This document shows positions 28,695 to 32,556 of a stretch of 64,000 bases of DNA, one piece after another. The notes below the pieces were generated by a model. The model worked only from the letters and a program-made list of their open reading frames with translations. It searched no databases and was not told the origin of the DNA. The position numbers and the translations under genes are program-made. The first letter of the stretch is position 1. Every line of letters begins with the position of its first letter. This DNA comes from Microbulbifer guangxiensis (lineage in GTDB: Bacteria; Pseudomonadota; Gammaproteobacteria; Pseudomonadales; Cellvibrionaceae): the NCBI RefSeq assembly GCF_021729075.1, contig NZ_JAJSAQ010000003.1:62001-126000 (forward strand). Direction: 5' to 3'.

Positions 28695-30200
28695 TCAATT
28701 GAGAGGCGCTGTGCTTTCGATTCTGTGCTCCAGCGACATCAGGTAATGGGCCAGGGCCCGCTTCTGGGTTGCACTGAAATCATACTTCGGCATCGGTGGG
28801 GTGGGGGTGTCAAAGTAGTCCGCCAGTTGCTGCAGGGAATATTTCCTCGCCAGGTTGCGCAGAGGCATCTGCTCAGCGTGGCAACGCGCACAGTCGAAGC
28901 GCTGATAGATCTCCTCACCCCGCTGGGCCGCACCACTGTCAATGGGTTGTGGCTTTGGCGGCGCCTGGATGGGCGGCCGGTTGCCAGGAATGGTGCCGCC
29001 CCTGGGATTCTTGCCCGCCCTGACGCGGTAAACCGCACCGGCATAATCATCGGAGATATAGATGTTGCCATTGGCGTCCTCGGCAAAAGCCACCGGCCGA
29101 CCGAAAACCGTCTCGCCGTCGTCTGAGAGGAAGCCCTGCAGGAAGTCGCGCTCGCGGATATTGCCACTGGCGTCCCAGTGTAGTGACACCACCTTGTAGC
29201 CGTCCTTTTCACTGCGGTTCCAGCTGCCGTGCAGCGCCACCAGGGCGGAATCCCAATAACCTCTGGGCTGCAATGGACTCTCGAGGAAATGGATGCCAAG
29301 CGGGGCGTTGTGGGCGCGGAAGCCGTGCACCGGCGGAGTGGATTTGTCGATTTTCTGCTCGATTTCCGCGCTGGCATCGACGCCAAAATCCGGGTCTGGT
29401 ACCCGGTTGCCGTTGGCGTAGGGCCATCCGTAGAAGGCGCCTTTCTTAACCCGGTTCAGTTCATCCGGCGGGAAGTCGTCGCCGAGCCAGTCGCGGCCGT
29501 TGTCGGTGGCGTAGAGCTCACCGCTCACCGGCGACCAGTCGAAGCCAACGCTGTTGCGCAGGCCTGTAGCGAAGATTTCCGGCTCACCGCCCTCGGGCTT
29601 GAAGCGCATGATGGTGGCGCGGCGCGGGTTTTCTTCCTCGCATACGTTGCAGCTGGAGCCGCTGCTCAGGTAGACCCAGCCGTCCGGCCCCAGATCGATG
29701 GTCTTGGTCCAGTGATTGCCGCTGTCATCGAGCCCCTTGACGATGCGCTGGTAGCTGCCGGCTAGGCGCCGGTCCGAGTGGTCGAACGGCACCCGGCCCA
29801 CTGCATCGCTCTCGGCGATATACAACCAGTCCTCGTGCAGGAACAGGCCATGGGGGCGGCGCAGACCATCGATCAGTACCCGTTGGCCGTCGGCGCGCCC
29901 ATCTTCATTGGCATCCGCGCGCAGCAGGCTTACCTGACCACGCCGGGGTTGCGACACCAGAACATCGCCGTTACGGGTGACCGCCAGCCAGCGGGCATTG
30001 GGGACATCATCGGCAAAGAGTGTGACGCTGAAACCATCCGCGACCACAAGTTCACGCTCCACGGTTTCTTCGTCGGTATCCGCCGTGCCGGTGAGTTGCT
30101 GCCAGGGCACATTGACTCCGGGAATGAGCGCCACAAGGAGGAATGCGCCGAAGATGACTAGTGCGATAAAAATGAGCGCGTATTTCAACAGGTTGTTCAC
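28695..30200 (-). CDS. PQQ-type sugar dehydrogenase fused to cytochrome c
   Basis: A 501-residue protein with one N-terminal membrane anchor (YALIFIALVIFGAFLLVALI). A beta-propeller of the soluble glucose/sorbosone dehydrogenase type follows, with LAVTRNGDVLVSQP, GLRRPHGLFLHEDWLYIAES, GWVYLSSGSSCNVC and TGLRNSVGFDWSP. A C-terminal cytochrome c domain carries the haem motif CARCH at about 437-441, with a later methionine-rich region (TPPMPKYDF). It would oxidise a periplasmic sugar or alcohol and pass electrons to its own haem. PQQ use is inferred from the family. The start is GTG 30200; the ribosome site is weak. Confidence 0.82.
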   Translation of the reverse strand: MNNLLKYALIFIALVIFGAFLLVALIPGVNVPWQQLTGTADTDEETVERELVVADGFSVTLFADDVPNARWLAVTRNGDVLVSQPRRGQVSLLRADANEDGRADGQRVLIDGLRRPHGLFLHEDWLYIAESDAVGRVPFDHSDRRLAGSYQRIVKGLDDSGNHWTKTIDLGPDGWVYLSSGSSCNVCEEENPRRATIMRFKPEGGEPEIFATGLRNSVGFDWSPVSGELYATDNGRDWLGDDFPPDELNRVKKGAFYGWPYANGNRVPDPDFGVDASAEIEQKIDKSTPPVHGFRAHNAPLGIHFLESPLQPRGYWDSALVALHGSWNRSEKDGYKVVSLHWDASGNIRERDFLQGFLSDDGETVFGRPVAFAEDANGNIYISDDYAGAVYRVRAGKNPRGGTIPGNRPPIQAPPKPQPIDSGAAQRGEEIYQRFDCARCHAEQMPLRNLARKYSLQQLADYFDTPTPPMPKYDFSATQKRALAHYLMSLEHRIESTAPLN

Positions 30201-30304: not shown

Positions 30305-30391
30305 TGTGAGATATGTCTCCGTCTTGTGAGATATATCGCACAACAAATTCAGCCGATTTCCCCTACTTTTTTTTGCCGCAATGTCCATAAT
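30305..30391 (+). promoter_or_regulatory. GacA/UvrY-like upstream sites and promoter of small RNA 1
   Basis: TGTGAGATATATCGCACA at 30325-30342 is an imperfect palindrome resembling the GacA/UvrY site TGTAAG-N6-CTTACA. A half-like copy TGTGAGATATGTCT begins at 30305. A CATAAT -10 is at 30386-30391. The palindrome centre lies about 64 bases before the predicted start near 30398, as in front of rsmY/rsmZ genes. Confidence 0.65.
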
Positions 30392-30397
30392 GAGAGT

Positions 30398-30523
30398 GCA
30401 AGGATGCTTAAGGGACTGCAAAAACCGCGGCAAGGGATAAAGGGACTGCGCCGCAGCTCAAGGGAACTGAGCACCATCCTGTGAGACGCACCGTCCGGGC
30501 CGGATTGCCTGGGCGGTGTTTTA
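30398..30523 (+). ncRNA. CsrB/RsmY-type small RNA 1 (short copy)
   Basis: Predicted transcript of about 125 nt with no protein frame. It contains five AGGA/AGGGA motifs (GGA at 30402, 30413, 30435, 30443 and 30463) in short spacing, plus one in the terminator loop. The fifth is in a hairpin: GCTCA-AGGGAAC-TGAGC at 30456-30472. A strong intrinsic terminator at 30489-30522 (stem CACCGTCCGGGC/GCCTGGGCGGTG, then TTTT) ends it. GGA in hairpin loops is the binding signal of CsrA/RsmA, and RNAs of this kind sequester that protein. Family assignment is by architecture, since no covariance search could be run. Confidence 0.72.
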
Positions 30524-30593
30524 CATTTTACCCTTCGGATTCTCTCCTCTACTCCCCCTGCGCGCTTCGATACCCGGGCCGATGTCTTCAGGC

Positions 30594-30660
30594 TGTGTGA
30601 CATATCGCACAATAAATTCAGCTTTTTCCCTCTGGCAGCTTCTGGCCGGCGGACGATAAT
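30594..30660 (+). promoter_or_regulatory. GacA/UvrY-like site and promoter of small RNA 2
   Basis: TGTGTGACATATCGCACA at 30594-30611 repeats the palindrome of the first unit, followed by the shared AAATTCAGC block. GATAAT at 30655-30660 is the -10. The site-to-start distance (about 64 bases) is the same as in unit 1. Confidence 0.65.
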
Positions 30661-30666
30661 GGTATT

Positions 30667-30971
30667 GCAAGGACGCAGAAGGGCATGGAAGCCTGAAAGC
30701 AGGGACGCAGAAAGGCAAGGATGCCAGGCTGCAGGGACGCGGAAAAGCACGGAAGCACAAGGAAGAAAAAGGGACTACAAAAAGGATTTTTAGAGGGACG
30801 ACAGCAAGGCGGCGAAGGAAAAAAGGACTGTGCCGCAACGCTCGAGGGAAGCGGGCAGAGGGCTCAAGGGAATCGAGCCCACGGTTCAACGGAGTGAACC
30901 ACACGCCCAAGGGAAATGGGCACCATCCTGTGAGACGCACCGCCCGGGCCGGATTGCCTGGGCGGTGTTTT
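30667..30971 (+). ncRNA. CsrB-type small RNA 2 (long copy)
   Basis: Predicted transcript of about 305 nt with about 17 GGA motifs plus one in the terminator loop. The 5' part has three tandem 32-base units starting at 30671, 30703 and 30735, each opening GGACGC and carrying further GGA sites. The 3' part has clear hairpins displaying the motif: GGCTC...GAGCC (30861-30879, loop AAGGGAATC), GGTTCA-ACGGAG-TGAACC (30883-30900) and GCCCA-AGGGAAA-TGGGC (30905-30921). The terminator at 30938-30970 is nearly identical to that of unit 1. Size and motif number are close to CsrB of enterobacteria. It likely titrates CsrA/RsmA under GacS/GacA-type control; csrA and gacA are not in the window. Confidence 0.78.
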
Positions 30972-31356: not shown

Positions 31357-31932
31357 ATGCAAGCGAGAGAAGCGAGAATCTTGCGCCTGAACCTGGCGGG
31401 GCAGCCACTGGAGTGGCTCAACTGGCAGGAGGCGGCCTGCCTCTACGTGCGCGAACTGGTGACCTGGTCACTGGGTGGGGTAGTGCAGACGGTGCACGGC
31501 GGTATCAACCGCATGGGTGAGCGCTCGACTCTGGACCTGGCGGCAATCATCGCCTGTGGCGGCGAGCGCATGGCGCGTCCACGGCGCCGCCCACCGCTCA
31601 CCAACCGCGCCCTGTTTTTCCGCGATGCCCAGACCTGCCTCTATTGTGGCAAGGATTTCACGCTTTCAGAGCTCACCCGCGACCATGTACAGCCGGTGTC
31701 TCGGGGCGGCAAGGATGTCTGGGAAAACGTGGTCACCGCCTGTCGCCGCTGCAACCAGCACAAGGGCAACCGGTTGCTGCAGGATATCGATATGGAGCTG
31801 CTGGCCCTGCCGTTCTGTCCCAACCCCGCGGAGTACCTGGCGCTGATCAACAGTGACCGGATCCGCGGGGACCAGATGGAATTCCTGCGCGGGCAATTTT
31901 CGAATATGCGCCAGGAGGGCTGGCTGGTCTGA
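31357..31932 (+). CDS. HNH endonuclease domain protein
   Basis: A 191-residue protein. Residues 1-80 form an N-terminal segment (LRLNLAGQPLEWLNWQEAA) typical of the HNH proteins often found singly in gammaproteobacterial chromosomes. The HNH region has zinc cysteines C94/C97 (CLYCGKDF) and C129/C132 (CRRCNQHKG), and the active-site TRDHVQPVSRGG with H110 and N124. It probably cuts DNA, but the biological role is unknown and no restriction or phage partner is adjacent. ATG 31357 follows GGGGAG and gives the family-like N-terminus; the frame upstream runs through hairpins. Confidence 0.85.
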   Translation: MQAREARILRLNLAGQPLEWLNWQEAACLYVRELVTWSLGGVVQTVHGGINRMGERSTLDLAAIIACGGERMARPRRRPPLTNRALFFRDAQTCLYCGKDFTLSELTRDHVQPVSRGGKDVWENVVTACRRCNQHKGNRLLQDIDMELLALPFCPNPAEYLALINSDRIRGDQMEFLRGQFSNMRQEGWLV

Positions 31933-31956: not shown

Positions 31957-32516
31957 TCGTCACCCCGGCGCAGGCCGGGGCCATGTGCTCGTGTGTTGCG
32001 ACTCTGTATCGAGTCTGTGCCACTTCGCTACCTCCTCTGGATACCGGCCTGCGCCGGTATGACGACATGGGGTGCGGTCACTCTCTCCGTCACCCCGGCG
32101 AAGGCCGGGGTCCATATTCTCGAGTGTTTTGACCCTGCACTGAGCGTTGGCTATTTCTCTCTGGATTCGGCCTGCGCCGGTATGACGACAGGGGGTGGGC
32201 GGCCACTCTCTCCGTCACTCCCCCGTCACTCCGGCGCAGGCGGGAGCCATGTGCTCGTGTGTTTCGACCCTGAATTAAGTCTGTGCCACTTCACCGCTCC
32301 CTCTGGATACCGGCCTTCGCCGGTATGACGACATGGGTGGGCGGTCACTCTCTCTGTCACTCCCCCGTCACCCCGGCGCAGGCCGGGGTCCATATGCTCG
32401 AGTGTTTTGACCCTAGACTGAGCGTTGGCTACTTCTCTCTGGATTCGGCCTGTGCCGGTATGACGAGAGTTGGGGGCATTCCTTGTGTCGTCACCCCGGC
32501 GAAGGCCGGGGTCCAG
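31957..32516. repeat. Palindromic repeat array 1 (about 123-142 bp period)
   Basis: Cores of the form CACCCCGGCGCAGGCCGGGG start at 31961, 32091, 32227, 32369 and 32492. They alternate with inverted partners of the form GGATACCGGCC...GCCGGTATGACGA. Spacers share CTCTCTC-rich and GTGTTTTGACCCTG-like segments but differ in length, so the array is older or more eroded than array 2. It fills the whole space between the converging HNH and ddl genes. The core CCGGCG(C/A)AGGCCGG is shared with array 2. Confidence 0.85.
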
Positions 32517-32556
32517 TCCTGGAGGTGAGAGAATCGCATTACGTGGGATGGATACC

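Follow-up and report, generated by a model that had tools for sequence, protein, structure and literature searches.

Two tandem genes in Microbulbifer guangxiensis very probably encode GacA-activated small RNAs that titrate CsrA

Which genes occupy the stretch that separates a divergent PQQ-dehydrogenase-like gene on its left (28695-30200, minus strand) from an HNH endonuclease gene on its right (about 31357-31932, plus strand)? It lies in a window of 64,000 nucleotides, the whole stretch of DNA analysed here, which belongs to a Microbulbifer genome of 3.65 Mb. Past the PQQ-dehydrogenase-like gene, away from the stretch in question, lies ispA, along with genes that, by their translations, we take to be xseB and dxs.

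The stretch contains two consecutive units, one short and one long, with the same order of parts: a palindrome, a -10 hexamer, a GGA-rich non-coding stretch and a terminator of 13 pairs (Table 1). These are very probably two tandem genes for small RNAs of the CsrB/RsmY/RsmZ type, activated by GacA and titrating CsrA. The layout proposed in a preliminary description of this DNA (two units with palindromes, -10 boxes and near-identical terminators) holds up, the elements standing where it had placed them. Its distance of about 64 bp from palindrome to start was kept, and the distance from the centre of the palindrome to the -10 hexamer is 52 bp in both units. The transcript ends of both units are predicted. 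A simple sigma-70 scan reported the second promoter (9/12) and did not pick up the first, that of the short gene.

Table 1. Features of the two putative small RNA genes (positions in the window)
Feature	Position	Strand	Remarks
Degenerate second palindrome TGTGAGATATGTCTCCGT	30305..30322	+	Ends of box 1 and this palindrome 20 bp apart in register; may be a weak second GacA site
GacA/UvrY-type box of the short RNA gene, TGTGAGATATATCGCACA	30325..30342	+	Exact pattern match; TGTAAGACATCTCTTACA at the equivalent place in 18 sister species
-10 hexamer CATAAT, short gene	30386..30391	+	52 bp from box centre; equal spacing in 46/47 genus loci
Short putative CsrA-sponge RNA gene, RsmY-like, about 125 nt, 6 GGA, 5 ANGGA	30398..30522	+	5' end predicted
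Hairpin GCTC-AAGGGAACT-GAGC with AGGGA in the loop	30456..30472	+	Compensatory changes in 2/4 counted pairs
Invariant 3' element CATCCTGTGAGA of the short RNA	30475..30486	+	Predicted pairing with 5' GCAAGGA; also exact csrA-leader complement
Intrinsic terminator, short RNA	30488..30522	+	Stem 30488-30519, 13 pairs
GacA/UvrY-type box of the long RNA gene, TGTGTGACATATCGCACA	30594..30611	+	Exact pattern match
-10 hexamer GATAAT, long gene	30655..30660	+	52 bp from box centre
Long putative CsrA-sponge RNA gene, CsrB-like size, about 305 nt, 18 GGA, 16 ANGGA	30667..30971	+	Enlarged tandem copy of the short gene; 5' end predicted
5' array of 16/32-nt repeats on GCANGGANGC mini-hairpins, long RNA	30667..30762	+	
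3' array of four stem-loops with loop GGA (three AGGGA, one ACGGA), long RNA	30840..30921	+	
Second copy of the CATCCTGTGAGA element, in the long RNA	30924..30935	+	
Intrinsic terminator, long RNA	30937..30971	+	Stem 30937-30968, 13 pairs

The upstream palindrome is specific to these genes. The pattern TGTNNGANATNTCNNACA matches the 3.65-Mb genome at these two sites only, and its reversed control matches nowhere. Because the exact palindrome occurs only there in the genome, GacA output would be addressable through these two genes. When the box was searched together with TTCAG, allowing one mismatch, it was retrieved in 47 of 48 genomes of the genus. The window's own two boxes deviate from the textbook GacA box TGTAAG-N6-CTTACA, which is present in sister species at the equal place and distance. 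This canonical box was found in 20 of the 47 loci compared, as TGTAAGACATCTCTTACA in 18 and differing from it by a single change in L056 and in L063, while the remaining 27 carry variant boxes such as TGTGAGATATCTCGCACA. Spacing is nearly constant, with 52 bp between box centre and CATAAT in 46 loci and 55 in one. The published UvrY binding sequence is TGTAAGNNNNNNCTTACA, with TGTGAGAGATCTCTTACA at E. coli csrB (PMC4682653), and, as far as sequence goes, the Microbulbifer box matches this site. A wider box search in 22 genomes (21 of other genera and one of the genus) retrieved 44 sites in 20 genomes, against 2 for the reversed control. ANGGA/GGA-rich stretches followed 22 of the 44 sites at a loose threshold set without a background run, and the stretches after the other 22 fell below it. 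Two of the latter, in G048 and G079, nonetheless resemble such RNAs.

A second palindrome was observed in part of the genus. At 20 bp before the GacA box of L030-L032 and L048-L064, all 20 canonical-box species contain TGTGA-N6-TCACA with at most one mismatch. Nine of these palindromes are exact, their inner six bases vary, and only one of the 27 variant-box species has one. We take this motif to be the CRP/Vfr consensus, which suggests a cAMP-CRP input to the short RNA in part of the genus. The CRP-type palindrome of the canonical-box species occupies the place of the window's degenerate palindrome at 30305.

The preliminary description had also noted dense GGA and AGGGA motifs in both units. 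ANGGA occurs 5 times in 125 nt and 16 times in 305 nt, whereas the highest counts among the 2526 and 2518 equally long windows in the rest of the 64 kb are 4 and 5, respectively. Plain GGA is exceptional in the long unit, whose count is reached by none of the 2518 windows, and not extreme in the short unit, where 43 of 2526 windows reach 6. Simple hairpins with GGA in the loop were mildly above mononucleotide shuffles (34/500 shuffles reach the count for the short unit and 25/500 for the long one), and folding-energy z-scores were -2.8 and -3.3, respectively.

Open reading frames in the window's list do cross the RNA stretch. Of the 47 short-RNA copies in the genus, 26 have an open best forward frame and 35 an open best reverse frame; their lengths range from 123 to 137 nt following no triplet rule. 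With frames interrupted in many copies and lengths free of any triplet rule, a protein-coding reading was rejected, in agreement with the earlier statement that credible protein frames are missing.

Comparison across the genus places the short RNA on firmer ground. A DNA search detected the element in 48/48 genus genomes and in 2/97 others (50/145 in total). A covariance model built from 20 of the 47 short copies also retrieved the short RNA in 48/48 Microbulbifer genomes, and gave weaker matches in 8/96 genomes of other genera of the family; all eight have an upstream palindrome on the same strand with 4-5 mismatches to TGTAAGACATCTCTTACA. In 244 genomes of the order the search gave seven matches, of which six belong to the genus and the seventh to the family, and this model therefore does not reach further. 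Pairing in the alignment is nearly complete (99.5% of cells), and 8 of 28 pairs show two-sided changes. Shuffles reached the observed pairing in 0/500 cases on four of five measures and in 1/500 on the fifth, and slid versions scored far lower. The closing helix says little, as it hardly varies. As for conservation beside the same genes, to which the preliminary description had pointed, the HNH neighbour is kept at some loci.

No Rfam 15 family matched the window at the gathering score. Up to E=10, no Csr/Rsm family, including CsrB (RF00018), was retrieved in the window, the best match being SorX at 19.5 bits, and a scan of 20 loci gave no Csr/Rsm match either (one tRNA). The positive control, E. 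coli csrB, was found at 380 bits, which bears out the suspicion that standard models miss these RNAs. No report of them was found in the open-access literature on Microbulbifer with CsrA or in Csr-RNA prediction surveys; one csrB/rsmZ prediction survey reportedly appeared in 2006. GacA and CsrA of Teredinibacter are discussed in PMC2699552.

The putative protein partners are encoded as well. A single CsrA is encoded in the window's genome, together with one clear regulator of the GacA/UvrY type, whose scores of 278.6-279.8 bits lie 0.2-1.4 bits under the curated equivalog cut-off of 280. CsrA was not matched in 6 of 47 genus genomes, and GacA at E<=1e-70 was not matched in one of 48 (G001), in both cases possibly a matter of search sensitivity. 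Taken together, the canonical box in sister species, the presence in all 48 genomes, the compensatory changes and the encoded CsrA and GacA support the proposed reading as a pair of CsrA sponges. Phosphorylated GacA would bind the 18-bp palindrome, some 64 bp ahead of the start, and switch on transcription of both RNAs. These would bind CsrA dimers through numerous A(N)GGA motifs placed in their hairpin loops and linkers. CsrA titrated in this way would be kept off mRNA leaders, and we propose that GacS/GacA signalling would therefore relieve CsrA control, with any phenotype that this may bring. The label 'master regulators', used in the preliminary description, we infer by analogy from the known role of such RNAs.

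Two further observations concern these proteins. Eleven species have 5 to 27 CsrA-family matches each (G044 with 27, G010, G042, G029, G003, G043, G006, G009, G036, G014 and G004), and they are those with the box TGTGAG...(T/C)(T/C)ACA or TGTGAG...CTCACA. The other 30 genus genomes with a CsrA match have one in 29 cases and two in G020. In a tree of 30 species, GacA divides along the same line as the box type, into two groups (100/100). Residue 192 of GacA (alignment numbering), in the HTH region SPKTVN[S/T]YRYRIF, is T in 15/15 canonical-box species and S in 15/15 others examined. This may represent a change in specificity; as the tree contains a single split, the pattern is not independent evidence.

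The long unit is best explained as an enlarged copy of its neighbour. The two units share 93% identity over their 72-nt 3' ends and 75% over their 52-nt box regions, as expected of the 'duplicated pair' put forward earlier. Such a pair is the exception in the genus, since two boxes were found in only 4/48 genomes. A long second gene is present in three (the window's genome, G012 and G035), with lengths of 309, 293 and 363 nt when cut 4 nt past the T run, and with 18, 18 and 24 GGA, respectively. Its 5' part is an array on the GCANGGANGC theme, and its 3' part an array of stem-loops whose loops contain GGA. Considering that the GacA proteins of the three carriers form one clade (100/100), the long copy probably arose once. 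The fourth genome, G034, is absent from the GacA tree; both of its copies are short, and its duplicate looks independent. The short RNA is probably the ancestral, genus-wide sponge, and the long RNA looks like a recent enlarged duplicate of it. It would have arisen when the short gene was duplicated in tandem, probably in a common ancestor of the three sister species, and grown as GGA mini-hairpins were amplified, so that the sites per molecule roughly tripled. Tandem rsmX copies (PMC7911923) and csrB duplications, including adjacent copies (PMC6262261), have been published, and duplication itself is therefore not new.

Alternatively, only the short unit would be a working sponge, the long one being a decaying duplicate without function whose GGA repeats stem from replication slippage. 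Its restriction to 3 of 48 genomes and its repetitive, length-variable 5' half would fit such decay, as would the one mismatch to the box pattern in two of the three species and the interrupted T run (TTGT) behind the terminator stem in G035. However, all three species have kept the box, a -10-like hexamer and the terminator stem, several of the 3' GGA stem-loops have changed and yet still paired stems, and the number of GGA stays at 18-24. We therefore regard decay as unlikely and retain two working sponge genes as the preferred reading.

The part of the short RNA just before its terminator raises a separate question. The sequence CATCCTGTGAGACGCACCG is identical in 47/47 genus copies, and CATCCTGTGAGA within the window is perfectly complementary, over 12 nt, to the csrA leader at 19-30 nt ahead of the start codon. 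It is conceivable, though improbable, that these are dual-function RNAs, which sequester CsrA and also base-pair: the antisense 3' element CAUCCUGUGAGA, through CATCCTGTGAGA, would pair with the CsrA-like site of the csrA leader, TCTCACAGGATG, just 5' of the Shine-Dalgarno sequence, and directly change csrA translation. If true, one GacA-driven RNA would act on the CsrA protein and the csrA message alike. The leaders of the 98 window ORFs reach at most 9 nt of complement to the RNA, and the 11-mer CTCACAGGATG occurs three times in the genome, in the csrA leader and in antisense in both RNAs. Moreover, the window's element ranks its own csrA leader 1/22, and both motifs, in RNA and leader, persist in many genera. 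In 13 of the 15 genera with both parts, the variable base matches between the two, an RNA G facing a leader C or an RNA A facing a leader T; these include g2, g20 and g25, where leader and RNA are both in the changed T/A state.

Nevertheless, several results weigh against such pairing. The SELEX-derived CsrA site is RUACARGGAUGU (PMC7652899), which the csrA leader motif, ACAGGAUG, resembles; it is thus probably CsrA's own autoregulatory site, whose conservation is expected anyway. The variable base disagrees in g4 and g23, and a permutation of leaders among the 15 genera gave no co-variation (p=0.30; G030 as genus representative, own rank 16/22). In the rest of the 64 kb, 11 of 6314 overlapping windows of 60 nt also have a 12-13-nt complement somewhere in the short RNA. 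RNAduplex energies of the entire molecule told little, with 14 of 98 leaders doing as well as csrA; only the 20-nt element was telling, being equalled by 5 of 3196 windows, a count that includes the RNA loci themselves. In four genomes (G052, G056, G061 and G065), box-linked GGA-rich stretches had no element in the part read. When folded with assumed 5' ends, 12 of 14 relatives pair at least 5 bases of the element with the 5' part of the same RNA, and this intramolecular fold would be a simpler reason for its conservation.

In a third reading the units would belong to the HNH endonuclease gene as its leader or attenuator and would not be free small RNAs. It would draw on the HNH gene lying 3' in the same orientation at this locus and in G069, G072, G077 and G198 (among loci with ORFs listed), but is highly improbable given that both units end in terminators, that about 390 nt separate them from the HNH start and that in G048 and G079 the RNA adjoins instead what we take to be an xseB-like gene.

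Read as free CsrA sponges, the two RNAs combine traits of known systems. Like Pseudomonas RsmY, RsmX and RsmZ, the short one is a putative GacA-activated RNA with few exposed GGA and a palindromic upstream activating sequence. Unlike these, it has no Rfam match, and its 3' element CATCCTGTGAG and neighbours (the ispA side and the HNH gene) appear to be its own. The long RNA recalls enteric CsrB/CsrC and Vibrio CsrB1-4 in its CsrB-like size, its 18 GGA and its UvrY-type box. In contrast to CsrB/CsrC, it looks built by enlarging a short neighbour and has no RF00018 match; the box is also placed differently, at about -64 in Microbulbifer and about -183 at E. coli csrB (PMC4682653). Among marine gammaproteobacteria, the recently described Csr RNAs Pf2 and Pf3 of Pseudoalteromonas fuliginea (PMC11882849) come from a different genus and are likened here by description. 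Judging by the sequence comparisons, the Microbulbifer RNAs are a database-missed addition to the known class of CsrA sponges and not a new kind of system. They would take the place of the Csr/Rsm antagonist RNA that had been missing in Microbulbifer and some other genera of the family, and the covariance model and synteny can now serve their annotation. Pseudoalteromonas belongs to another order than Microbulbifer. The long copy of three species may be a young example of a CsrB-type array derived from an RsmY-type RNA through tandem duplication and amplification of GGA mini-hairpins.

Beyond the genus, box-linked stretches with 10-14 GGA in 200 nt were observed in other genera of the family: L257 (G081), L280 (G050), L260 (G056), L261 (G061) and L284 (G074). 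These are likely to be further long Csr RNAs; L257, L260, L261 and L284, scanned with Rfam, gave no Csr match. The HNH gene, which adjoins the RNA in several genera, is small and shows local likeness to the HNH part of Cas9/IscB models, at 49 and 43 bits, far below the cut-offs. Just beyond it, at 31990-32530, short ORFs cluster on both strands with recurring similar translations (...PACAGMTT.. and ..PAKAGVH..), looking like dispersed palindromic repeats.
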